Of a stretch of DNA of 39,234 bases, positions 1 through 39,234 are shown one piece after another; the first letter of the stretch is position 1, and the number at the start of each line of letters is the position of its first letter. The notes below the pieces were generated by a model, which saw nothing but the letters and a program-made list of their open reading frames with translations, had not been told where the DNA came from and did not search any database. The stretch comes from a virus. The position numbers and the translations under genes are program-made. The stretch is taken from the IMG/VR virus record IMGVR_UViG_3300044987_002875, positions 1 to 39,234 of that record. One strand, written 5' to 3'.

Positions 1-345
1 AATATAACACCGCCGGGTGGACGGGGCTTCTTTTCGTTGGTGTTTCCGGCGAGGGGGTTACGTTTACAAACAGCGCCGCCGGCCGCGGGTTCATGTCATG
101 GGAAATACCCGCAACAATGACGCCGACGAACGGGCGCTATGCCTTCCAAATTTTCGGCGCTCAGGGCGCGCGCATGGAAGAGTGGGCCCGCGGGGCGGTG
201 ACGGTCCGCGGCAACCCCGGGAAAACGGCGCTCCCTGTTGAATGGGTTAAAATGAACCCGGTTTATGTCATAGCCACAAACGCGCTTAAAATCGCTCAGG
301 ACGCGTCGGGCGCCGCGGCCGGGGCAATACAAGCGGCAGGCGTTG
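1..345. repeat. Left terminal direct repeat (imperfect, pairs with 38890-39234)
   Basis: These 345 bases align without gaps to 38890-39234. I count nine mismatches, at positions 35, 38, 47, 59, 68, 104, 197, 209 and 218. The last 127 bases (219-345) are identical in the two copies. All nine mismatches lie at third codon positions of the fibre reading frame; eight are silent and one changes Glu to Asp. This is best read as the closing overlap of a circular genome map that contains two alleles. A real partial gene duplication is the alternative. Confidence 0.9.
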
Positions 346-6522: not shown

Positions 6523-6534
6523 TAAAGGCCCTGA

Positions 6535-6566
6535 GCCCTGCCGGAAACCCGGTGGGGCTTTTTTTT
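6535..6566 (+). terminator. Strong intrinsic terminator of the first early operon
   Basis: GCCCTGCCGG (6535-6544) pairs with CCGGTGGGGC (6549-6558), all ten positions including two G-T pairs, with loop AAAC. A T8 run follows (6559-6566). Confidence 0.9.
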
Positions 6567-6699: not shown

Positions 6700-6841
6700 T
6701 TTTTGACGTAACTCGCGTCCCTGGGACACCGGTTTATGACTTTTCCCATTTTTTGAAAACAGCTTGTCCCATACGCGCGCGCGAGCGGCATGTCCCAGGG
6801 ACATGATGTCCCACGCGCGCGTATGTCTTAAAAGACATATA

Positions 6842-6867
6842 GGGGAAATAAATAAATTCATTTCCCC
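6842..6867. other. R1 hairpin A
   Basis: GGGGAAAT (6842-6849) pairs with ATTTCCCC (6860-6867) around a 10-base loop. In R2 the matching stem is GGGGAATA/TATTCCCC with another 10-base loop. Two base pairs are exchanged and both stay paired. Confidence 0.75.
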
Positions 6868-6911
6868 CCTGAGAAAAGAAACACTCGCCGCTGGCGGTTT
6901 CTTTCTCAGGG
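6867..6911. other. R1 hairpin B
   Basis: CCCTGAGAAA (6867-6876) pairs with TTTCTCAGGG (6902-6911). After a bulged A, GAAAC pairs with GTTTC. An apical CGCC-GCT-GGCG stem-loop completes it. R2 has CCCTGAAAAG/CTTTTCAGGG and CGCC-TTT-GGCG at the same places. Confidence 0.75.
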
Positions 6912-7041
6912 ATACGGGCAAGGGGCGCGCGCAAGACCTCAGGCCGGCGCCGGCGTATGGTTGCGGCCCCCAAACAGACGGGGCGCGCCTGATTGCTTCT
7001 AATGACCTTTAAAACGTCAACCGGCAAACGCAAAGAAACGC

Positions 7042-7076: not shown

Positions 7077-7106
7077 TTGACTTCCACCCCGGGAACGAGT
7101 TAATAT
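7077..7106 (+). promoter_or_regulatory. Early promoter P2 (sigma70-type)
   Basis: TTGACT at 7077-7082, an 18-bp spacer, then TAATAT at 7101-7106. The downstream ACGCCATCAA is the same as after P1. It should drive the replication module beginning at 7139. Confidence 0.8.
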
Positions 7107-7301: not shown

Positions 7302-7745
7302 ATGGACCCAACACAAGACAAACCGATTGACGAAACGCCGGTGGCGCCATGGAATGAACGGGCAATCATTCTCGTCGAGTCTATGGCCCGCCGTTGCGTC
7401 GGATGTTTTCAAAAGGGCCTGCAATGCCGCCGGTGCCTTTGCGCAGACGCCGCCGCCATTATCCGCGAGCGTGATATTCAGCAACAGGAAAAAGCCGCCG
7501 CGACCTATACAGGGGCCGCAAAAGCCAACAGCCCCGCGGACCGCCGCCGCAAGGCCCTGCTCGCCCGGATACCTGAGGGCGTGTGGCTCAGGGTCAAGCA
7601 GATAAAGTTTGCCCCCGGAACCCGCCCCGGTGAAAAAAGCGAGGACCTCGCCTGTCTTAACCGCGCCGGGCTGATTGAGAAAAGAAGCCCCGAGGCTGAC
7701 AATACCCGCGTCGTCGAATACAGAAAGCCGGCAATAGTAAAATGA
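7302..7745 (+). CDS. Cys-cluster protein with winged-helix-like C-terminus
   Basis: The protein has 147 residues. Cys32, 35, 42, 45 and 47 (CVGC, then CRRCLC) could bind zinc or a metal cluster. Residues about 80-147 (RRRKALLARIPEGVWLRVKQ, then EDLACLNRAGLIEKRS and VVEYRKP) resemble a winged helix, in which LNRAGLIEKR would be the end of the recognition helix before the wing. A DNA-binding regulatory role is plausible. It overlaps the next gene by four bases (ATGA). Confidence 0.65.
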   Translation: MDPTQDKPIDETPVAPWNERAIILVESMARRCVGCFQKGLQCRRCLCADAAAIIRERDIQQQEKAAATYTGAAKANSPADRRRKALLARIPEGVWLRVKQIKFAPGTRPGEKSEDLACLNRAGLIEKRSPEADNTRVVEYRKPAIVK

Positions 7746-7948
7746 TTTTGCAACCCCATACAATAACGCGCGTCGAGCGGTCCTCAGTTTACAAACTGGC
7801 GGACGCCTCAGGGCGTGAAATAGCGGGCTTTTCAACTAACTCCATGACACCAGCCGGTGGGGTTTTCTTGTTTCATCCAAACAGAGGCTGGACAAAAGAA
7901 CAGGCCGACGCGGCAATCCGCGCGGCTTTAAAAAAGGGTACACCATGA
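7742..7948 (+). CDS. Small protein, unknown
   Basis: The protein has 68 residues starting MILQPHTITRVERSSVYKLAD. It looks like a small beta sheet followed by one helix (TKEQADAAIRAALKKG). ATGA overlaps at both ends show tight translational coupling with its neighbours. No family recognised. Confidence 0.6.
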   Translation: MILQPHTITRVERSSVYKLADASGREIAGFSTNSMTPAGGVFLFHPNRGWTKEQADAAIRAALKKGTP

Positions 7949-8311: not shown

Positions 8312-8332
8312 CAAGGAAGGAATACTAAACAC

Positions 8333-9361
8333 ATGAACAGCCAACAGAATAACACTCCGGGCCCTGAAAGTCAAGGCCCCGAAAAGTCAGAAAAGAAAGG
8401 TTTAAATATGCAATGCTCTGCCGCGTTTGCAAAGGCGCTCCTGGCGGTCCAAAAGACCTGCCTGGTCGCGTCAAAGGACGGGACTAATACGTTTTTTCAG
8501 GGGCGCAAATACGCAACCCTTGACGAAATCATAAACACGGTCCGCGAGCCCCTTACCAATAACGGGCTGGTTTTAATGCAGGACACGGATTGCGACGGGA
8601 CCAGCGTCAAGGTAATAACCCGCCTGATACATGAAAGCGGCGAGGCCATGGAAAGCGCGCCCCTGGTTTATACGCTCCAGCCGGAATTCACCGGCGGCAA
8701 ACAGGGCGCGCCGGTTGTCCAGGTCCCGGCCGGGGTCCAGCAGATTGGTAAAGCGATTACATACCTGCGGCGCTATTCGCTCAGCCCCTTTTTAGGGATT
8801 GCCTGCGAAGTTGACGACGACGGCAATACGGCCAGCCATGCTGACACGACGCCGGCGCCGAAGGGCCAGCCGGTCAAGACCGCCTCGGGGGTTACGGTGG
8901 GGCATGTTGCGGAGGGCTCAGTCAGGAAGAGCGCATACACCGGCGAGCTTCTTGACAACCCGGCCGCCATTGAGCGCCACCAGGTTGCGGCCTCAGCCGC
9001 GAAGGCAAAGGCCGCCGCCGGGGAAACAGAGAAAGACAAAGCCGACGCCGCTTTTGTCAAGGCCGTAATTGAGCCGGCCGCCGGCAAGCCCTCAGGCATC
9101 GCTTCAGACGCCCAGGTCCGCGGGGCCTTTAATGCCGCCCTCTATGACGCCTGCGAGGCCTCAGGGGTTACAACTGAAGAGCTGGACGCCTATTTGCGCG
9201 GCCAGGCGGGGAACCCGCGGATTAAGACGCCGGTCCTGGGTGACGGTATGACAATTCACAACATGGGGGAGCGCATTGTCGACGCCCTCCTGAAAGAGAA
9301 AGACAAGCCGGAAAGTAACTGGAACAAGACCGTGGCGCGCATTGTTGCGGGCCGCAAATAA
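8333..9361 (+). CDS. erf: ERF-family single-strand annealing recombinase
   Basis: The protein has 342 residues. Residues about 30-170 carry the ERF-family pattern: FAKALLAVQK, KYATLDEIINTVREPLTNNGL, ITRLIHESGE and VQQIGKAITYLRRYSLSPFLGI, ending in EVDDDGNTAS. P22 Erf-type proteins form rings that anneal complementary ssDNA in phage recombination and genome circularisation. The second half is Ala/Lys-rich and less conserved, and probably contacts partners. The Met at 8333 has SD AAGGAAGG and is preferred over an upstream in-frame ATG inside the preceding gene. The next gene is an SSB-like protein, the usual partner in these modules. Confidence 0.9.
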   Translation: MNSQQNNTPGPESQGPEKSEKKGLNMQCSAAFAKALLAVQKTCLVASKDGTNTFFQGRKYATLDEIINTVREPLTNNGLVLMQDTDCDGTSVKVITRLIHESGEAMESAPLVYTLQPEFTGGKQGAPVVQVPAGVQQIGKAITYLRRYSLSPFLGIACEVDDDGNTASHADTTPAPKGQPVKTASGVTVGHVAEGSVRKSAYTGELLDNPAAIERHQVAASAAKAKAAAGETEKDKADAAFVKAVIEPAAGKPSGIASDAQVRGAFNAALYDACEASGVTTEELDAYLRGQAGNPRIKTPVLGDGMTIHNMGERIVDALLKEKDKPESNWNKTVARIVAGRK

Positions 9362-9935: not shown

Positions 9936-10235
9936 ATGACAGAACAAACTAAAAAAATCATTGCCGCGGTCCTGAAAACGGACGACACCGTTTCACCCTC
10001 TGAGCGCGCGGCAATCGTTTTGTGGATTACAGCGCAGACAGGCCCCCAGCCTGATTGCATATTGCGCCGGCTGGCCGTTGCGGTCCGCCTCGGCGTCAAG
10101 GTCAAGACCGTGGACCAGCTTGCGGCCCGCGGCGTCTTAAAGAAAGTAATGTGGCCGGGCGCAAAACGCGCGGCCGGTTTCCGGGAAAGTGACGTGGTAA
10201 AACTGATTGAGGAAGGCGGTGCAAAAGATGAATGA
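9936..10235 (+). CDS. Small helix-turn-helix protein (excisionase/MerR-like fold)
   Basis: The protein has 99 residues. The part CILRRLAVAVRLGVKVKTVDQLAARGVLKKV, followed by AAGFRESDVVKLIEEG, resembles the HTH of excisionase or MerR-type DNA-binding domains: helix-turn-helix, a basic strand, then the F-R-xx-D-V helix. It could regulate the operon or act as a DNA-architecture protein. No SD is visible at 9936, and a GC hairpin lies upstream, so translation may be controlled. It overlaps the next gene by eight bases. No integrase accompanies it. Confidence 0.6.
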   Translation: MTEQTKKIIAAVLKTDDTVSPSERAAIVLWITAQTGPQPDCILRRLAVAVRLGVKVKTVDQLAARGVLKKVMWPGAKRAAGFRESDVVKLIEEGGAKDE

Positions 10236-11565
10236 TACAACCAACGGCGCCGGCGTATTTATTGCCGGGCTTCAGATTGAAAACGTAAAGCGGGTCCGGG
10301 CGGTCAAAATGATACCGGCGCCGCAAGGGCTGACAATTATCGGCGGGGATAACGGGCAAGGAAAGACCAGCGTCCTCGACGCCATTGCCGGGGCCCTGGG
10401 CGGCGACTCTTTCAAACAGCCGGTCCACGAAGGCGCGCCCCGCGGCTTTGCAAAGGTTACGCTGAGCAATGGCCTGGTGGTCGAGCGTATTTACACGGCC
10501 GGCGGCGGCTCCCGGTTAAAGATTGAGGACCCCTCCGGCAAAAAAAGCGGCCAGTCTTTGCTCAGCGAGCTGGTTTCCCAGTTTGCCTTGAATGTTGGGG
10601 AATTCATGGCGGCCGGGGACAAAAAAAAGGCTGAAATCATGCTTAAGGTCATAGGGGTGGACCCCCAGCCGTTTGAAGAGCGCATACGCGCCCTCGAGGC
10701 GGACCGGCTTTTGAAGGGCCGCGAGTCTGAAAGGCAAAAGGGATACGCCGAAAACTTGCCGTATTATGAAGACGCCCCGGAAGAGCGCCTGGACGGTAAC
10801 TCAATCTCGGCGCAAATGACAGAGGCCCTGCAGTACAATGCAAAGGTCCGCGCGGCCGGTGTTGACGTCGGGGCAAAGAAAGACGCCCTCGACCTTGCGG
10901 AAATCCGCCGGGATGAAGCCGAGCGCGCTTTGGCCGCCGCTCAGGAACGGCTCGCCGCCGCTGAGGCAAAGAGAAAGACCAGCGCCGACGAATACCGGGC
11001 CGCCCTTGAAAACGCGGCAACCGTGGGCCAGCCTGTTGACACCCAGGCCATAAGCGCCAAGCTGGCCGAGGTTTCTGAGATTAACGAAAAGGTCCAGGCA
11101 AACCTCAGCAAGAAACAGGCAAGGGAAACGGCGCAACTCCTGCAGGCGGAATACTCAGCAATCAATGAGGAAATCAAACAGGAGCGCGAGGCCTTGCGGG
11201 CGTTGCTTGAAGGGGCGGCTTTGCCATACCCCGGGCTCGGCGTCAACGAGGGGGCCCTTGAATATAACGGCCGGGCATGGTCAACACTCTCAGAAAGTGA
11301 GAAGCTGATTTTGTCGACGGCTATTTCCCGGGCGGTCAATCCAAACTGCCGGTTCGTTTTGGTTGACGGGCTCGAGCGGATGGACCGCAAGACCCTGGCG
11401 GTATTTTCCGGGTGGCTCAGCGCTCAGGGATTGCAGGCCATTGGCACCCGGGTGGGCAACGGTGACGAGTGCTCCCTGATTATTGAAAACGGGGTGGTGG
11501 CGGGTTCGGAAGAAACGCAACCGGCCGCGGCTCAGCCCGAGGTCCCGGACGGGGCCTTCGATTAA
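10228..11565 (+). CDS. SMC/Rad50-like ABC ATPase
   Basis: The protein has 445 residues. Walker A is GDNGQGKT at residues 40-47, in the N-terminal half-domain. Residues about 190-310 form a charged coiled coil (RRDEAERALAAAQERLAAAEA). The C-terminal half carries LSESEKLILSTAISRA, in the place of the ABC signature, and Walker B FVLVDGLE at 376-383. The layout is that of short SMC/RecF/Rad50-type ATPases found in phage recombination modules. The coiled coil is short and no SbcD/gp47-like nuclease is visible beside it, so it may work with the ERF and SSB-like proteins instead. The Met at 10228 is chosen for SD GGAAGGCGG. Confidence 0.8.
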   Translation: MNDTTNGAGVFIAGLQIENVKRVRAVKMIPAPQGLTIIGGDNGQGKTSVLDAIAGALGGDSFKQPVHEGAPRGFAKVTLSNGLVVERIYTAGGGSRLKIEDPSGKKSGQSLLSELVSQFALNVGEFMAAGDKKKAEIMLKVIGVDPQPFEERIRALEADRLLKGRESERQKGYAENLPYYEDAPEERLDGNSISAQMTEALQYNAKVRAAGVDVGAKKDALDLAEIRRDEAERALAAAQERLAAAEAKRKTSADEYRAALENAATVGQPVDTQAISAKLAEVSEINEKVQANLSKKQARETAQLLQAEYSAINEEIKQEREALRALLEGAALPYPGLGVNEGALEYNGRAWSTLSESEKLILSTAISRAVNPNCRFVLVDGLERMDRKTLAVFSGWLSAQGLQAIGTRVGNGDECSLIIENGVVAGSEETQPAAAQPEVPDGAFD

Positions 11566-12462: not shown

Positions 12463-14037
12463 ATGATTACCCCGCGCCAATATCAGAAAGAGGCCCACGA
12501 CGCTATTTTCAAAGACTGGGAAACATACCGGGCGACCCTGTTGGAAATGGCAACCGGCACCGGAAAAACGATTGTGTTTTCCATGGTCGCGCAAACGCTC
12601 GCCGCTCAGAAAAAGCGGTGCCTGATACTTGCCCACCGCGACGAGCTTATACGCCAGGCGGTTGACAAGCTCAGCCGGTCAACAGGGCTGGACTCGGCAA
12701 TCGAAAAGGCGGAAGAGCGCGGGGCCGGCTCAATGTTTCCGATAGTTACGGCGTCGGTGCAGACCCTTTGCCGGATTAAGCGCCTTGAAAGTTTTCACCC
12801 CGACGAATTTGCCGCCGTGATTGTTGACGAGGCCCACCACGCCCTTGCTCAGACATACCAATCTATTTTTAACTATTTCACCGGGGCTAAAATTTTGGGG
12901 GTGACGGCGACCCCGGACCGGGGTGACAAGAAAAACCTGGGGCAAATTTTCGATAATATCTGCTTCAAGTATGGCCTGCGGCAAGCGGTCCTCGAGGGCA
13001 ACCTTTGCAAAATAACGGCGCAAACGGTCCCCCTTAAGATTAACCTGGGCGCAATGAAACAGCTCGCCGGGGATTATTCCGAAACGGCCGTGGGCTCAGC
13101 CCTTGAACCCTACCTTTGCGGAATAGCCGAGGAGCTTTCCAAGCGCGCCGCGGGCCGTAAAACGCTGGTATTTTTGCCCCTCAGGGTTACGAGCCGGCGC
13201 TTCTGTGAATTGCTCAGGGGGTACGGAATGGACGCCCGGCATGTTGACGGGGAAAGCGAGGACCGGGATGATGTCAAGGCATGGCTTGCAACCCCGGGGC
13301 CTAAAATCTGTTGCAATGCCATGTTATACACCGAGGGCTTTGACGAGCCGTCCATTGACTGCGTGGTCCCGTTGCGGGTGACGAAAAGCCGCTCCCTCTA
13401 TGCGCAGATGATTGGCCGCGGCACGCGCCTGTTTCCCGGAAAGGCGGACCTGCTACTGTTGGACTTCCTTTGGCAAACGGAAAAGCACGACCTTTGCCGG
13501 CCTTGCCACCTGGTTGCTGAGCGCGCCGAAACTATGCAAATAATGGAGGCTATTCAGGAAAAGAAAGCCGCCGCGGGCATTGAGCAAATTGACCTCTTTG
13601 ACCTTGAAGAGCTGGCCAATACTGAGGAGGCGGAAAAACGCCACAAGGCTTTGGCCGAGGCCCTGAAAGCTCAGGAAAAGAAAAAGAGCAAGCTGGTGGA
13701 CCCGCTTTTGTTGGGGGTCATAATTAACGACTCAGATTTAAGCGATTACGAGCCCACAATGAAATGGGAACGCGCCGCCATGACAGACGGGCAAAGGGCA
13801 TGCCTGCCCCGGTTTGGCATCAATCCGGACCTGGTCAAATGCAAGGGCCACGCCACCATGCTGATTGGAAAAATGATTGAACGCCGAAAAATGAACTTGG
13901 CTTCTTTGGGGAAAATCGCTATTCTCGCAAAATATGGCTTTGAGGATGTGGGCGGCATGACAGACAAAGCGGCTAATATTGCCATTGACCGGATAAAGGA
14001 AAACCGCTGGAACGGGCCCGAGCGCTGGTTTGATTGA
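12463..14037 (+). CDS. SF2 DNA helicase (DEAH-type)
   Basis: The protein has 524 residues. Visible motifs: a Q-like start TPRQYQKEA, Walker A ATGTGKT at 30-36, Ia LAHRDEL, motif II VDEAHH at 121-126, motif III TATPDRGD at about 148-155, and motif VI QMIGRGTRLF. This is a full two-domain SF2 helicase of the type seen in phage replication and recombination modules, where it would unwind branched DNA or start replication. The C-terminal 150 residues are charged and less conserved. It begins right after the stop of the previous gene. Confidence 0.9.
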   Translation: MITPRQYQKEAHDAIFKDWETYRATLLEMATGTGKTIVFSMVAQTLAAQKKRCLILAHRDELIRQAVDKLSRSTGLDSAIEKAEERGAGSMFPIVTASVQTLCRIKRLESFHPDEFAAVIVDEAHHALAQTYQSIFNYFTGAKILGVTATPDRGDKKNLGQIFDNICFKYGLRQAVLEGNLCKITAQTVPLKINLGAMKQLAGDYSETAVGSALEPYLCGIAEELSKRAAGRKTLVFLPLRVTSRRFCELLRGYGMDARHVDGESEDRDDVKAWLATPGPKICCNAMLYTEGFDEPSIDCVVPLRVTKSRSLYAQMIGRGTRLFPGKADLLLLDFLWQTEKHDLCRPCHLVAERAETMQIMEAIQEKKAAAGIEQIDLFDLEELANTEEAEKRHKALAEALKAQEKKKSKLVDPLLLGVIINDSDLSDYEPTMKWERAAMTDGQRACLPRFGINPDLVKCKGHATMLIGKMIERRKMNLASLGKIAILAKYGFEDVGGMTDKAANIAIDRIKENRWNGPERWFD

Positions 14038-14074
14038 GTAAAAGGAAAAGGAACGAAACACCATGGAAAACACA

Positions 14075-14099
14075 TTGACAAAAGGGGGCAAATAATATG
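14075..14099 (+). other. Degenerate copy of the late-region motif at the primase-helicase start
   Basis: TTGACAAAAGGG (14075-14086) is identical to the start of the motif copies at 23412 and 33440, followed by GGCAAATAAT and the ATG of the next gene. It lacks GGCCTATA. The G run also serves as SD for 14097. The sequence includes a ten-codon open frame (14063-14095) that I do not call a gene. Confidence 0.35.
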
Positions 14100-16256
14100 C
14101 CCCAAAACAGAGTGCCAAAGTTTCTCGAGGACGCCGTATTTGCCGGCGCCGGCGAAGGTCAAAGAAACGACCGCGCCTTTTGGGTTGCGGCTCAGGCCCG
14201 CGACGCGCGCATACCGCGGCATGAAGCCGAGGCCATGATTGAGCAGTTTGCCGCGCGTTGCAATCCGCCGCTAAACATGGGGGAGGCCTTGAACGCCGTG
14301 GCCTCGGCATACCGGGCCGCCCCTCGGGAAGAGGCGAAGAGCCCCGGGGGCCCAAAGAGCGGCGGCGCATACAAGCCCCGGGCGCCGTTTACCGGGTCCG
14401 ACGACGTCATTGACTGGGAGGGCGTCATTGGCCCGGCCGCTGAGAAGCGCGCCGCCGCTGAGGCCGCCGGCTCAGGCGCCCCGGATTTTGTGGAAGAGGT
14501 CCCGCCGCCCTCAGGCAACCCGGCCGCGGATTTGCGCGCCTGGCTTGCGGCCCTCTATCAGCCCGACGACCTTCTTAATTACATGGTGACAAGTTTTAAA
14601 GACGAGGACGGCAAGTATAAGCCGCTCGGCAAGGGCGCCACCCGCTCCCGCTCAGACATAGAAGCCGGGCTTGACAAATACGAGGCCAAAGGCTACAAGG
14701 GCGACGAGCTGTTGCGGATGGTGTTGGGGGATTGGCAACCGGACGCCGGCGTTTGGGCCCGGATAAACCCGCTTGACGGCGAGGGCGTTTTCAATACCAA
14801 CGTGGTCCGCCTTGACCATGTCCTCGTCGAAGGTGACGAGCAACCCATAGAGAAACAGCTTGCAATCATTAAGTCTTTGCGGCTCCCTTGCGCGGCAATA
14901 GTACACTCGGGCGCAAAGAGCGTCCACGCCATTGTAAGGGTCGGGGCCGGTACTGATAAAGCCCTTTATGCCGAGCGCGTGGCGGCCCTGTTTAAGACGT
15001 TGGAAGAGGCCGGGCTAAAGGTTGACGTAAAATGCCGCAACTCTTCCCGGCTTTCACGTTTGCCGGGCCCGAGCCGCGCGGGCAAGCCCCAGTATTTAGT
15101 TGCGGGCCCTTGCGGGGCTCAAAGTTGGGATAGTTGGCAGGCTGAGCGCGAGGCCTCAGACTTCCGGTCCGACGCCATGGGGCCGGATGAACTAGACGAA
15201 GCGCCCGCCCCTGATAGCCTTGTCGGGGACCGCTTTCTTTGCCGCGGCGGGGCCTGGGTGGTTGTTGCTCAGTCAGGCGCCGGCAAGTCTGTCCTGGCCA
15301 TGCAGGCCGCCATGTCTTTCTCGGCCGGCCGGCCCTTTTTCGGATTGGCTACTGCAGGCGCCACCCGGAACCTTATGATACAAGCGGAAAACAACCGCGG
15401 GGACATGCACGAAACTTTTGTGGGGATAAAAAAGGGGCTACTTTTTGACCTTGACGAAAAGGCCCTGCTGAGGGAAAACTTCAGGACGGTCCATTGCTCG
15501 CGCTATACCGGGGCGGTCTTTTGTGAATTTTTGGCGCATCAATGCCGCCTATTCAAGCCGGATATTGTGTGGGTGGACCCGCTGTTGGCTTTTCTAGGGG
15601 GTGAAATATCGAAAATGGGTGACACCGCCCGCTTTTTGAGAAACCAGCTCCAGCCGGTCATTGAGGACAACAATATCGGCGTGGTGGTTATTCACCATAC
15701 CGGCAAGCCGCCGAAAACTGAGGAGGGCAAATACAAGGGCGCCGACCTTGCTTATTTAGGCATAGGGTCCTCGGATATAACTAACTGGGCCCGGGCAACG
15801 TCAACCCTGCTCCGGATGGAAGGCGCCGACAATCGCTTTATTTTTGAGCATGCCAAGCGCGGCGGCCGGGCCGGTTGCAAGCGCGCGACGGAAATCATGC
15901 ACGCCTCAGGGGGCGGCATTTACTGGGCTGAGGCCCCTGGCAAGGTGACAGAGGCGGACCGCCGGGATATTGAGGCCCGGAAACACGGCCGGGACCCGAG
16001 CCACAAAACCTATTGCCAGCCCTCAAAGTATGACGGGCTCGGCTTTGAGCAAATGCCGCCGCTTAAGGGCGGGCGGGAGGCTGAGTCAAGCCCGGCGGTC
16101 CTTTGGATTGCCGAGGTACTTGAAAAGCGCGGTTTCCCTGAAAGCCCGGCAAAGGTCAAAAACATAATGAGAACGCTCGAGCGGCTCGGCTTTATCCATT
16201 TTGACACCGACCGCCTCGTTTGGCACGGGTCAATGCACGATTTTACACAAGGATAA
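14097..16256 (+). CDS. Primase-helicase fusion (AEP-type primase with RepA-like AAA_25 helicase)
   Basis: The protein has 719 residues. Residues 20-75 resemble the PriCT helical domain (NDRAFWVAAQARDARIPRHEAEAM, then NAVASAYRA). Residues about 140-350 resemble a phage primase-polymerase core (RINPLDG, VHSGAKSVHAIVRV, CRNSSRLSRLPGPSRAG). The C-terminal half is a RecA-fold helicase with Walker A SGAGKS (393-398) and a Walker B-like DIVWVDPLLAFLG, as in RepA/AAA_25 proteins. It would make primers and unwind DNA at the phage fork. It starts two bases after the stop of a ten-codon frame, with AGGGGG as SD. Confidence 0.85.
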   Translation: MPQNRVPKFLEDAVFAGAGEGQRNDRAFWVAAQARDARIPRHEAEAMIEQFAARCNPPLNMGEALNAVASAYRAAPREEAKSPGGPKSGGAYKPRAPFTGSDDVIDWEGVIGPAAEKRAAAEAAGSGAPDFVEEVPPPSGNPAADLRAWLAALYQPDDLLNYMVTSFKDEDGKYKPLGKGATRSRSDIEAGLDKYEAKGYKGDELLRMVLGDWQPDAGVWARINPLDGEGVFNTNVVRLDHVLVEGDEQPIEKQLAIIKSLRLPCAAIVHSGAKSVHAIVRVGAGTDKALYAERVAALFKTLEEAGLKVDVKCRNSSRLSRLPGPSRAGKPQYLVAGPCGAQSWDSWQAEREASDFRSDAMGPDELDEAPAPDSLVGDRFLCRGGAWVVVAQSGAGKSVLAMQAAMSFSAGRPFFGLATAGATRNLMIQAENNRGDMHETFVGIKKGLLFDLDEKALLRENFRTVHCSRYTGAVFCEFLAHQCRLFKPDIVWVDPLLAFLGGEISKMGDTARFLRNQLQPVIEDNNIGVVVIHHTGKPPKTEEGKYKGADLAYLGIGSSDITNWARATSTLLRMEGADNRFIFEHAKRGGRAGCKRATEIMHASGGGIYWAEAPGKVTEADRRDIEARKHGRDPSHKTYCQPSKYDGLGFEQMPPLKGGREAESSPAVLWIAEVLEKRGFPESPAKVKNIMRTLERLGFIHFDTDRLVWHGSMHDFTQG

Positions 16257-16257
16257 T

Positions 16258-16893
16258 ATGGAAACATATAAAACTGATTTACTAGACCTCAGGAACATTG
16301 ATTGCATGGAACTATTGAGGGTGACTCCCGACAAGGCTTTCGACCTTGCAATCGTGGACCCTCCTTATGGAATAGGTGAGGACGGAGGAAAATTCCGAGA
16401 CAGGAAAGGCGGAGGACATAGAGTTCTTGCCAAAAAAAACTGGGACAATGAAAAGCCCGGAATTGATTACTTTAAGGAACTATTCAGGGTTTCCAAAAAC
16501 CAGATAATATGGGGCGGGAATTATTTTGCAAACTTGCTCCCGGCTTCCAGATGCTGGCTTTTTTGGGATAAGCTAATGGGAGGAGATTTTTCAGACGGCG
16601 AGCTGGCGTGGACCAGCTTCGACTCTGTTGTTAAAAGGTATACAAAATGCAATAAAGACCGTGGCCATATTCACCCAACGCAGAAGCCTGTTTCCCTTTA
16701 CAGTTGGATTATTTCTATCTATTGCAAGCCTGGAGACAGGATTTTAGATACACACCTTGGCTCCATGTCTATTGCCGTGGCTTGTCATTTTTCTGGCCTC
16801 CACCTGACTGGAGCAGAAAAAGATAAAGACTATTTTTTGGAGGCCGTCGAAAGAGTGAAACGAGAAACTATGCAACAGGAATTTATTTTTTAA
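16258..16893 (+). CDS. Orphan DNA methyltransferase (beta-type), probably recently acquired
   Basis: The protein has 211 residues. The catalytic motif DPPY is at 34-37 and the SAM-binding motif (DTHLGS, 164-169) comes after it. This order is that of beta-class N6-adenine or N4-cytosine methyltransferases. HPTQKP upstream of motif I is typical. The short middle region would recognise the target. G+C is clearly lower: my count of the first 180 bases gives 45%, against 62% for 180 bases near the end of the previous gene. This suggests transfer from another source. No restriction enzyme is next to it, so it likely protects phage DNA. SD AAGGATAAT. Confidence 0.85.
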   Translation: METYKTDLLDLRNIDCMELLRVTPDKAFDLAIVDPPYGIGEDGGKFRDRKGGGHRVLAKKNWDNEKPGIDYFKELFRVSKNQIIWGGNYFANLLPASRCWLFWDKLMGGDFSDGELAWTSFDSVVKRYTKCNKDRGHIHPTQKPVSLYSWIISIYCKPGDRILDTHLGSMSIAVACHFSGLHLTGAEKDKDYFLEAVERVKRETMQQEFIF

Positions 16894-16914
16894 AAAAAAA
16901 GGAAACGAAACACC

Positions 16915-17760
16915 ATGAAAGCCAAAATTACAAAAGCAACAAACTGCCCCGCCATTGAGGGCCTCGTCGGGGAGCTTGAAATCTCAGCAGGCGGGACTTG
17001 CAACTTTGCCCCCGATAGAATACCGGCCGGCTGGCCCTTCCCGAGAAACTATGTTTTCATTTCAGACGGGCGCACCGTTTCTTATGATGTCTTGCCGGAT
17101 TATGAACCCACCCAGGATGAAATAGAACGAGATGCTATGCTTCATAACCGCTTAATGAAACACTATGACGCCACGCGCGCTCAGGTTGCGGCCGGGCGCG
17201 CCACCCCTAGAACGGACGCGGTTATAATGGCCTCGCGCGCCGGCGGGGTTTCAGAGGCCGAGCTATGCAAGACGGTTTCAGCCTTCGCCGCTGAGCTTGA
17301 AAGGGAAAACCGGGCCCTCCGGGATGAACTGAGGAAAGCCAACAGCAAAGAGGAGCTTATTATTTGCCCCAGTTGCGGCTCAATCCAACAGGCCGCCGTC
17401 GAAGCCGGCTATCCCTTCGCCATAATGGTCCATACTTGCGGCGCTTGCGGCTTTGACATAACCGAGTCGGATTGGCAACCCGTCGCCGCCATTACCGAGG
17501 CCAAAATTGAAAGCGCCCTGCAGTATGCCGGCTTTGTTGACGTTTGCATGAAAGAGCGGGCAACCGTAAAGGGGTGCAAAACTTGCCACCTCTTTCTTTC
17601 CAAAAAATGCCTGCGCCGCCGCGGGGTTGCTAAAATGTTTCCCAAACAGGCCTGGACCTTCCTTTTGCCGGACTCTGAGCAACCGGACCGGTTCCACGCC
17701 TATATCAAACGGGCCGCGGCCGCCCTTGAAAAGAAAGTGTGGGCAATCAATGCCAATTAA
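16915..17760 (+). CDS. Zinc-ribbon protein, unknown
   Basis: The protein has 281 residues. A charged coiled-coil stretch (SAFAAELERENRALRDELRKANSKEE, about 122-147) is followed by a four-Cys zinc ribbon (CPSCGS and CGACGF, about 150-182). Further Cys lie in KGCKTCHLFLSKKC. The N-terminal 60 residues look beta. No known family recognised. It may be a DNA- or protein-binding adaptor. The start follows an A-rich leader GGAAACGAAACACC. The frame overlaps the HNH gene start by 11 bases. Confidence 0.65.
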   Translation: MKAKITKATNCPAIEGLVGELEISAGGTCNFAPDRIPAGWPFPRNYVFISDGRTVSYDVLPDYEPTQDEIERDAMLHNRLMKHYDATRAQVAAGRATPRTDAVIMASRAGGVSEAELCKTVSAFAAELERENRALRDELRKANSKEELIICPSCGSIQQAAVEAGYPFAIMVHTCGACGFDITESDWQPVAAITEAKIESALQYAGFVDVCMKERATVKGCKTCHLFLSKKCLRRRGVAKMFPKQAWTFLLPDSEQPDRFHAYIKRAAAALEKKVWAINAN

Positions 17761-18034
17761 ACCCGAAAACCGCCGCCGCTATCCGCAAGACTGGCCGGCC
17801 GTTTCAAAGTCTGTCAGGGCCCGCGCCGGCAACGTTTGCGAAGGCTCCCCGGACTTCCCGGATTGCCGCGCCGTCAACGGCCAGCCCCACCCGGTGACGG
17901 GTTCAAGGGTCATTTTGACCGTCGCCCACCTTGACCATACCCCCGAAAATTGCGCGCCGGAAAACCTCAAAGCATGGTGCCAGCGTTGCCACTTAAACTA
18001 TGACAGGAAAACAAGAAAGGCCCCCCGGAAATGA
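17750..18034 (+). CDS. HNH endonuclease
   Basis: The protein has 94 residues. Structural Cys30/Cys39 and Cys77/Cys80 frame the active site AHLDHTPENC (His60, Asp62, His63) and ENLKAWCQRCH (Asn72, His81), which is the compact HNH layout with a beta-beta-alpha-metal core. Small phage HNH proteins nick DNA and can act in packaging or as homing-type nucleases. Here it stands free in the replication module, not beside the terminase. It overlaps the previous gene by 11 bases and the next by four. Confidence 0.85.
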   Translation: MPIKPENRRRYPQDWPAVSKSVRARAGNVCEGSPDFPDCRAVNGQPHPVTGSRVILTVAHLDHTPENCAPENLKAWCQRCHLNYDRKTRKAPRK

Positions 18035-18934: not shown

Positions 18935-19129
18935 CCCTCGCGTGCGCGCGCGCGTTGGGACATGCTCAGCCGGAAAACCCCGTTTTTTGACGTAACTCGA
19001 TACCCCAGGGACATGCTTTTATGACTTTTTTTGACCTCAGAGAAAACCCATGTCCCAACGCGCGCGCGCGAGGCCGTATGTCCCAGGGACATGATGTCCC
19101 ACGCGCGCGTATGTCTTAAAAGACATATA

Positions 19130-19155
19130 GGGGAATACCTTAAAAGATATTCCCC
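19130..19155. other. R2 hairpin A
   Basis: GGGGAATA (19130-19137) pairs with TATTCCCC (19148-19155) around a 10-base loop. It is the compensated counterpart of R1 hairpin A. Confidence 0.75.
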
Positions 19156-19198
19156 CCTGAAAAGAAAGCCCCTCGCCTTTGGCGGGCCCTTTTCAGGG
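19155..19198. other. R2 hairpin B
   Basis: CCCTGAAAAG (19155-19164) pairs with CTTTTCAGGG (19189-19198). The apical stem-loop CGCC-TTT-GGCG is at 19174-19184. It is the counterpart of R1 hairpin B with two exchanged pairs in the outer stem. Confidence 0.75.
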
Positions 19199-19218
19199 AA
19201 TACGAAAGAGAAGGAACC

Positions 19219-19683
19219 ATGAAATACAGACTCGACCAGCTACCCCCCGCCCTCAGGGCTCAGATTGAAAAACAGATTGCCAAAGAGGACGCCGCCGCCT
19301 CAGGCAACCCGGGGCCCTGCTCCGGACCGCTTGTCACCCCTGAGCAACCCAACAGCAAAAAGGAAAGAAAGCTGGCCCCCAAAGCTCAGACGAAAACCGA
19401 GGCCGACTTTAACCGGCGCTATTTAGCCGGCGCCGGGATGTTTGAAGCCATGGCCTTTAAAATGCCGGGCGGCTCCCGGTATACCCCGGACTTTGTCACC
19501 TATGACGAAAAAAATAAAATTTATTCTTGCTATGAGGTCAAGGGCTCGTTTAAACTCTCTTCTCATGGTCGAGCTTTAACGGCGTTCAAGGAAACCGCCG
19601 CCGCTTTCCCGGGCATTAGGTTTTTTTGGGCCACAAGGCAAGACGACGGAACCTATACGCTCAGGGAATACGAAAGGGAATAA
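19219..19683 (+). CDS. DUF1064-like nuclease (PD-(D/E)xK fold)
   Basis: The protein has 154 residues. After a charged N-terminus comes KTEADFNRRY (Glu61), then YTPDFVTYD (Asp91) and CYEVKGS (Glu106, Lys108). This is the E-PD-ExK set of PD-(D/E)xK nucleases as found in phage DUF1064 proteins. In phages such enzymes may act as Holliday-junction or branched-DNA nucleases that clear DNA before packaging. SD GAGAAGG. It is the first gene after R2. Confidence 0.8.
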   Translation: MKYRLDQLPPALRAQIEKQIAKEDAAASGNPGPCSGPLVTPEQPNSKKERKLAPKAQTKTEADFNRRYLAGAGMFEAMAFKMPGGSRYTPDFVTYDEKNKIYSCYEVKGSFKLSSHGRALTAFKETAAAFPGIRFFWATRQDDGTYTLREYERE

Positions 19684-38722: not shown

Positions 38723-39234
38723 GAAAACTCTTTTTTTTGCCGTCGCCCTCGCCGCTTGCTCAGCTTTTGCCGGGGCAAGAATTGAAACCCTGGAAAATGA
38801 CCTTTCAAAGAAACTGGTCCCGGGGTCCCTTGAAATTACGGCCGACGCCGATACAACGGTCCGCGGCCGCTTTTTATTCGCGGGCGGGGAATATAACACC
38901 GCCGGGTGGACGGGGCTTCTTTTTGTGGGTGTTTCAGGCGAGGGGGTCACGTTTACCAACAGCGCCGCCGGCCGCGGGTTCATGTCATGGGATATACCCG
39001 CAACAATGACGCCGACGAACGGGCGCTATGCCTTCCAAATTTTCGGCGCTCAGGGCGCGCGCATGGAAGAGTGGGCCCGCGGGGCAGTGACGGTCCGGGG
39101 CAACCCGGGGAAAACGGCGCTCCCTGTTGAATGGGTTAAAATGAACCCGGTTTATGTCATAGCCACAAACGCGCTTAAAATCGCTCAGGACGCGTCGGGC
39201 GCCGCGGCCGGGGCAATACAAGCGGCAGGCGTTG
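38721..39234 (+). CDS. Tail fibre / receptor-binding protein, N-terminal part with Sec signal peptide (continues at the window start)
   Basis: The frame is open to the end of the window and continues in the gene covering 1-2801. It begins MKTLFFAVALAACSAFAG, a good Sec signal peptide with cleavage after AFA. The mature part starts ARIETLENDLSKKL, followed by a beta-rich domain (ITADADTTVRGRFLFAGGEYN) and the conserved PATMTPTNGRYAFQIFGAQGARMEEWARG. In usual siphoviruses fibres fold in the cytoplasm, so an export signal is unexpected. Its first 169 bases are unique; the last 345 are also present at the window start. Confidence 0.75.
   Translation, partial: MKTLFFAVALAACSAFAGARIETLENDLSKKLVPGSLEITADADTTVRGRFLFAGGEYNTAGWTGLLFVGVSGEGVTFTNSAAGRGFMSWDIPATMTPTNGRYAFQIFGAQGARMEEWARGAVTVRGNPGKTALPVEWVKMNPVYVIATNALKIAQDASGAAAGAIQAAGV
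38890..39234. repeat. Right terminal direct repeat (imperfect, pairs with 1-345)
   Basis: Gapless match to 1-345 with nine differences and 127 identical bases at its end. Joining the genome here gives a 38,889-bp circle. See the finding on the junction. Confidence 0.9.

Follow-up and report, generated by a model that had tools for sequence, protein, structure and literature searches.

The Bacillus subtilis phage SPP1 carries two similar origins, oriL and oriR, located about 13 kb apart, and the second of these, when held by the origin-binding protein, has been proposed to stall replication forks and to trigger concatemer synthesis (PMC6316719). In RSF1010, RepC binds to iterons, RepA unwinds the DNA, and RepB', which resembles the archaeo-eukaryotic primases (AEPs), binds to the ssiA hairpin (PMC4434180, PMC4234260). 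In pRN1, a stem-loop lies 3' of a gene encoding an AEP primase, a helicase, and a winged helix in one protein; an intact stem is needed, and the stem-loop also works when moved (PMC4234260). The viral DNA analysed here (positions 1 to 39,234 of IMG/VR record IMGVR_UViG_3300044987_002875; 39,234 nucleotides, hereafter the window) contains a duplicated structured element, the copies of which (R1 and R2) flank a replication module that includes a gene for a putative AEP primase-helicase. Comparison with related phages suggests that R1 and R2 are probably two copies of the phage replication origin.

Each copy consists of an array of TGTCCC sites, an AT-rich stretch, a palindrome (P), and two hairpins (A and B), the coordinates of which are listed in Table 1. 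The longest run identical between R1 and R2 is 58 bp (6790-6847 and 19078-19135; an offset of exactly 12,288) and belongs to a wider, ungapped repeat of 132 bp (6785-6916 and 19073-19204) with 79% identity. This is the largest repeat in the window, leaving aside the window's own overlapping ends, and R1 matches R2 by BLAST with an E-value of 3e-32 and 85% identity. An earlier description made without database searches (the sequence-only reading) had pointed out the shared palindromes and the 58-bp core, the conserved pairing of stems A and B through paired substitutions, the constant loop length of A (10), the CGCC/GGCG tip of B, and the location of R1 upstream and R2 downstream of the replication genes, all of which were confirmed. 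For stem content, R1 ranks within the highest 0.8% of the window and R2 within the highest 3.4%.

In the collections searched, only four distinct copies of this element were found, and these originate from two phages. The second phage is represented by IMG/VR contig 3300020048_000257 (G002; 42,196 bp), which is ~95% identical to the window, with replication genes about 96-98% identical, and in which the two elements occupy the corresponding positions (7646-7866 and 19461-19678). R2 of G002 has drifted (P, ATATTG-AATA-CAATAT; A, GAGAAATA/TATTTCTC; B, CTGAGAAT/ATTCTCAG), and all three of its hairpins still pair. Among the four copies, 9 of the 22 examined pair columns vary, and all nine remain Watson-Crick with none broken, a count that is descriptive and not a test because the stems were picked for their pairing. 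The pairing of the third version, however, lay outside what the sequence-only reading had observed and supports its proposal of selection on structure. A conserved coding frame was considered and rejected: the frame that spans the core leads to different products in the copies, and the changes in the divergent half of R2 of G002 are mostly amino-acid-changing. R1 gave no BLAST match among 50,697 phage records. When viral contigs were scanned with the ATPase, the ERF protein, and core patterns, nothing emerged beyond this phage group and some short or distant contigs.

Stem A of R1 in G002 is identical to stem A of R2 in the window, and it is therefore likely that occasional, limited conversion between the copies has taken place. 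This identity, together with the 58 bp shared by R1 and R2, could also be expected if the elements were recombination sites, i.e. patches of homology for swapping the 12.3-kb replication block, as was one of the roles offered earlier. However, G002 retains both copies as well as the block between them, the gene swaps between the two phages (16255-17749) sit within this otherwise conserved block and not at R1 or R2, and exchange sites need neither compensated hairpins nor iterons. We regard such a role as highly improbable.

Exact TGTCCC/GGGACA sites number five in R1 and six in R2, against 0.04 and 0.05, respectively, expected from the rest of the window, and the arrays that they form span 6723-6812 and 18957-19100. 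Clustering was scored with non-overlapping words, each against its own background, and was calibrated on second-order Markov surrogates. With a log10 score of -5.3, against surrogate scores that never fell below -0.8, ATGTCCC at R2 is the strongest 6-7-mer cluster in the window, and the same word is the strongest cluster in G002 (-5.9). Simply counting clustered 6-mers of any kind and comparing with shuffles had failed to discriminate, and the own-background score took its place.

Clustered sites of this kind may also be operators, and R1 and R2 would then be regulatory leaders at which a dimeric phage regulator bound to TGTCCCAGGGACA controls the rightward operons from 7139 and 19219. The central site is indeed a perfect dyad, each copy closely precedes the gene that opens a block, and all genes in the window point in the same direction. 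Nevertheless, the only good sigma-70 site near R1 is located 160 bp downstream of it, a scan for sigma-70 sites in R2 found none, and operators leave unexplained both the compensated hairpins and the anatomy at the primase stop codon in relatives described below. The binding of a TGTCCC-specific regulator, as suggested in the sequence-only reading, is thus an unlikely explanation.

The module's DEAD helicase served to fetch distant relatives, at about 45-50% identity. In these, homologues of the helicase and AEP primase-helicase genes of the window keep their order, with the primase-helicase gene next after the helicase gene, and the top short-word cluster usually starts at the stop codon of the primase-helicase gene. 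In a first-pass analysis the cluster was found at this stop codon in 32 of 43 loci, against 1.9 expected from position. A significant word cluster was present in 34 loci and lay at the primase stop in 29 of them (mostly -41 to +65 bp), whereas a significant score was reached by one of 54 Markov surrogates. The word is phage-specific (GGGGTCA, CGCGACA, GCGGGGA, GTGCGCA, ACTAAAC, AACCCTA, and others). In 30 of 34 relatives, the 300 bp following the stop codon have a stem content within the top 5% of the locus, and the layout is often that of an AT-rich hairpin between inverted iterons and then a GC-rich stem-loop; R1 and R2 are made up of these parts as well. One relative chosen without regard to its word (L107) has seven AGGGACA sites at the primase stop. 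Another, obtained by a TGTCCC pattern search (L116), also carries this primase, and its AGGGACA array begins ~15 bp past the end of the open frame; the two primases have the helix SEKTVRR.VKE in common. Among isolates, Flavonifractor phage Castelnaud (ON453903) shows CGGGCA repeats, and the primase gene is followed by a gap of roughly 240-300 bp in EFC-1, Javan74, and FP_Lugh; the records of these four phages annotate none of these as an origin. The array is followed by a RusA or nuclease gene in the relatives, and in the isolates the terminase gene is next. Across the loci L026 and L032-L110, arrays and hairpins occur at the primase stop in most cases, and both the iteron word and the primase C-terminus vary. 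These comparisons suggest that the primase stop codon may be the general origin position for this phage module.

Since the relatives carry an iteron array and hairpins at the primase stop and the only comparable arrays in the window are R1 and R2, the origin reading is favoured, and of the four roles proposed earlier the paired origins are clearly preferred. The duplication, its conservation in a second phage, the compensatory stems, the iteron clustering, and the anatomy common to the relatives are features of the sequences themselves, and from them a scheme can be proposed for the identity of the initiator, for melting and priming, and for the way in which the two copies share the work. The TGTCCC sites would be iterons bound by a phage initiator, which is most likely the winged-helix-like C-terminal domain of the primase-helicase encoded at 14097-16256. 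Binding would melt the neighbouring AT-rich stretch, the helicase domain would then open the duplex, and P and hairpins A and B would form on the single strand thus exposed, where they would serve the AEP primase for loading or priming, a role modelled on the ssi hairpins of RSF1010. Of the two sites, 12.3 kb apart, one may be the main origin, and the other a second origin or a barrier with bound protein that promotes the change from theta to concatemer replication, an arrangement that has been proposed for oriL and oriR of SPP1. The complete scheme, in which both copies of a duplicated AEP-primase origin work, one firing and the other being either a second origin or a programmed barrier to forks at the concatemer switch, in which compensatory evolution has maintained the hairpins as signals for priming on single strands, and which evolved independently of SPP1, is possible but is put forward tentatively.

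R2, which follows the primase block and precedes the next conserved gene, appears to be near the ancestral position, and R1 would be the second copy, placed upstream at the front of the module. The fetched flanks of the relatives, several of which extend past the distance at which R1 lies, contain no second cluster of their own word (at most three sites per 250 bp), and the doubling therefore looks derived in the lineage of the window. If the origin reading is correct, the primase stop codon offers a rule for finding origins in a large, mostly uncultured phage group, and R1 and R2 represent a natural case of an origin that was doubled and moved. It would also become possible to ask what makes some phages retain two origins and whether the passage from circle to concatemer replication is governed by the second, and the varied iteron words beside varied primase C-termini would provide material for matching DNA-binding domains to the sites that they bind.

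Among the closest counterparts are the relatives themselves (e.g. L107, L116, L032, L033, and Castelnaud), which have the same module, the same anatomy, and a homologous primase-helicase. Their array is single and adjoins the primase gene, a place at which the window has no array, its two being located elsewhere. SPP1 resembles the window in having two similarly organised repeat arrays with an AT-rich stretch on one genome; it also encodes a single-strand annealing protein and makes concatemers. This likeness is one of organisation: SPP1 uses the origin binder gp38, a DnaB-type helicase, and the host DnaG, its oriL lies inside gene 38, and its origins have been described without compensated hairpins. 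The RSF1010 system combines initiator iterons at oriV, the hexameric helicase RepA (the closest solved relative of the helicase domain in the window), and an AEP-type primase that recognises hairpins in single-stranded DNA, to which the putative AEP primase and the hairpins of the window may correspond, but in RSF1010 the protein functions are divided among three proteins, there is one oriV, and the ssi hairpins occur one per strand. In pRN1 and in the proposed origins of BIP-1-type phages (PMC4234260), a stem-loop is located directly 3' of an AEP primase-helicase gene with a C-terminal winged helix. The helicase of pRN1, however, belongs to superfamily 3 and not to the RepA/RecA-like type found in the window, and pRN1 has a single copy of the stem-loop and no iterons.

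The compensatory stems would also be expected of a structured RNA, either a leader or an antisense RNA from the minus strand, in which the hairpins are the functional part. In all four copies, the fold of hairpins A and B (6842-6911 and 19130-19198 in the window) is more stable on the minus strand than on the plus strand, with a difference of 3.9 to 7.6 kcal/mol that is partly due to G.U pairs in stem A, and hairpin A on the minus strand scores terminator-like in both window copies. This preference could reflect a single-stranded structure on the minus strand, or chance. Folding of the origin regions in the relatives favours one strand only weakly (19 of 27), and this preference was kept out of the main evidence. 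Single-stranded DNA structure predicts the same stems, the element has no Rfam match at the gathering score, and a scan found no minus-strand promoter; an RNA would also leave the iteron array and the placement at the primase stop in relatives unexplained. With nothing specific in its support, this third of the earlier suggestions appears improbable.

Several observations weigh against the identification of R1 and R2 as origins. At the primase stop of the window (16256) there is no array, although the arrays of the relatives touch the primase gene; R2 lies 2.7 kb past the end of this gene in the window, and R1 precedes the start of the gene by 7.3 kb. The four copies come from two phages, and the relatives are partly redundant (near duplicates L083/L084, L057/L067, and L100/L103), so that the number of independent loci is somewhat lower than that given above. 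The C-terminal segment of the window primase differs from those of L107 and L116, and the AGGGACA word that they share with the window therefore provides moderate support only and may be due to coincidence or convergence; by eye, this segment resembles those of L033 and L035, which use other words. Dense TGTCCC/GGGACA arrays are also present in unrelated contigs (L117, L118, L120-L125, and L127) that have no detectable relative of the window proteins, and the word by itself is thus no proof of an origin; some of these arrays may lie in coding sequence (L124). GC skew, suggested earlier as a check for origins, has no turning point at R1 or R2 and was uninformative.

Table 1. Coordinates in the window of the parts of R1 and R2, nearby transcription signals, and genes of the replication module
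Feature	Position	Strand	Description
R1	6703-6916	+	Upstream copy of origin-like element
R1 iteron half-site	6723-6728	-	GGGACA
R1 AT-rich stretch	6732-6763	neutral	Flanked by inverted iterons; TTTATGACTTTT kept in 4/4 copies; candidate unwinding element
R1 iteron block	6765-6812	+	TGTCCC at 6765, 6791, 6807; GGGACA at 6798; TGTCCCAGGGACA dyad; (CG)n runs
Palindrome P	R1 6822-6839; R2 19110-19127		TATGTCTTAAAAGACATA; third palindrome, inside core
R1 hairpin A	6842-6867		Stem 6842-6849/6860-6867, GGGGAAAT/ATTTCCCC
R1 hairpin B	6867-6911		Stem 6867-6876/6902-6911
R2	18944-19204	+	Downstream copy of origin-like element; immediately 5' of gene 19219
R2 outer iteron with CG run	18944-18964	-	21-bp perfect inverted repeat with 19049-19069, made up of the two outer iterons with CG runs
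R2 iteron	19008-19013	-	GGGACA
R2 AT-rich stretch	19014-19048	neutral	Flanked by inverted iterons; candidate unwinding element
R2 iteron block	19049-19100	+	TGTCCC at 19051, 19079, 19095; GGGACA at 19086
R2 hairpin A	19130-19155		Stem 19130-19137/19148-19155, GGGGAATA/TATTCCCC
R2 hairpin B	19155-19198		Stem 19155-19164/19189-19198
Intrinsic-terminator-like hairpin	6533-6560	+	Ends upstream operon before R1
Sigma-70-like promoter	7077-7106	+	Downstream of R1, upstream of gene 7139
ERF single-strand annealing protein	8330-9361	+	
SbcC/RecF-like ATPase	10228-11565	+	phrog_1499; part of module
DEAD/SNF2-type helicase	12463-14037	+	Conserved replication module; query for relatives
Putative AEP primase fused to RepA-like helicase	14097-16256	+	C-terminal winged-helix-like fold; proposed initiator/primase for R1/R2
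First gene after R2	19219-19683	+	Motif YTPDF..YEVKG; no Pfam/PHROG match

Archaeo-eukaryotic primases are characterised by E-x-D, S-x-H, and D residues, and the invariant residues of the putative primase domain in the window (E245xD247, S275xH277, and D310) fit these motifs. The domain was modelled with a predicted local distance difference test (pLDDT) score of about 90 over residues 140-345; among the fold hits listed, every one concerned the helicase part. The helicase domain (AAA_25, RepA/RecA-like) matches RSF1010 RepA both in sequence (E-value of 3e-14; 1g8y) and in fold (top hits, 1nlf/1olo). The model of the whole protein has a mean pLDDT of 71 and ends in a helix-helix-beta-hairpin (666-711; pLDDT about 50-77), which is compatible with a winged helix. 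A genome scan yielded one distant primase, from a goat-omasum Lachnospiraceae metagenome-assembled genome (L115).

Between the primase gene and R2 is a run of small genes, of which those at 16255-17749 differ between the window and G002: in G002 (16758-17965), different sequence takes the place of a DNA methylase gene and a zinc-ribbon gene of the window. The gene that follows R2, the product of which is likely to be a PDDEXK nuclease as judged from its motif, opens the block that runs on to the terminase gene. The ends of the window (1-345 and 38890-39234) overlap by 345 bp with 97% identity, and a further contig (3300044952_001073; 99.7-100% identical) crosses the join; the record is therefore a circularly permuted map of about 38,889 bp, which, together with the ERF annealing protein, fits concatemer packaging. 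In addition, a 55-bp leader containing AACGAAACACCATG is present at two gene starts (14030-14084 and 16882-16936), the two copies being 75% identical.
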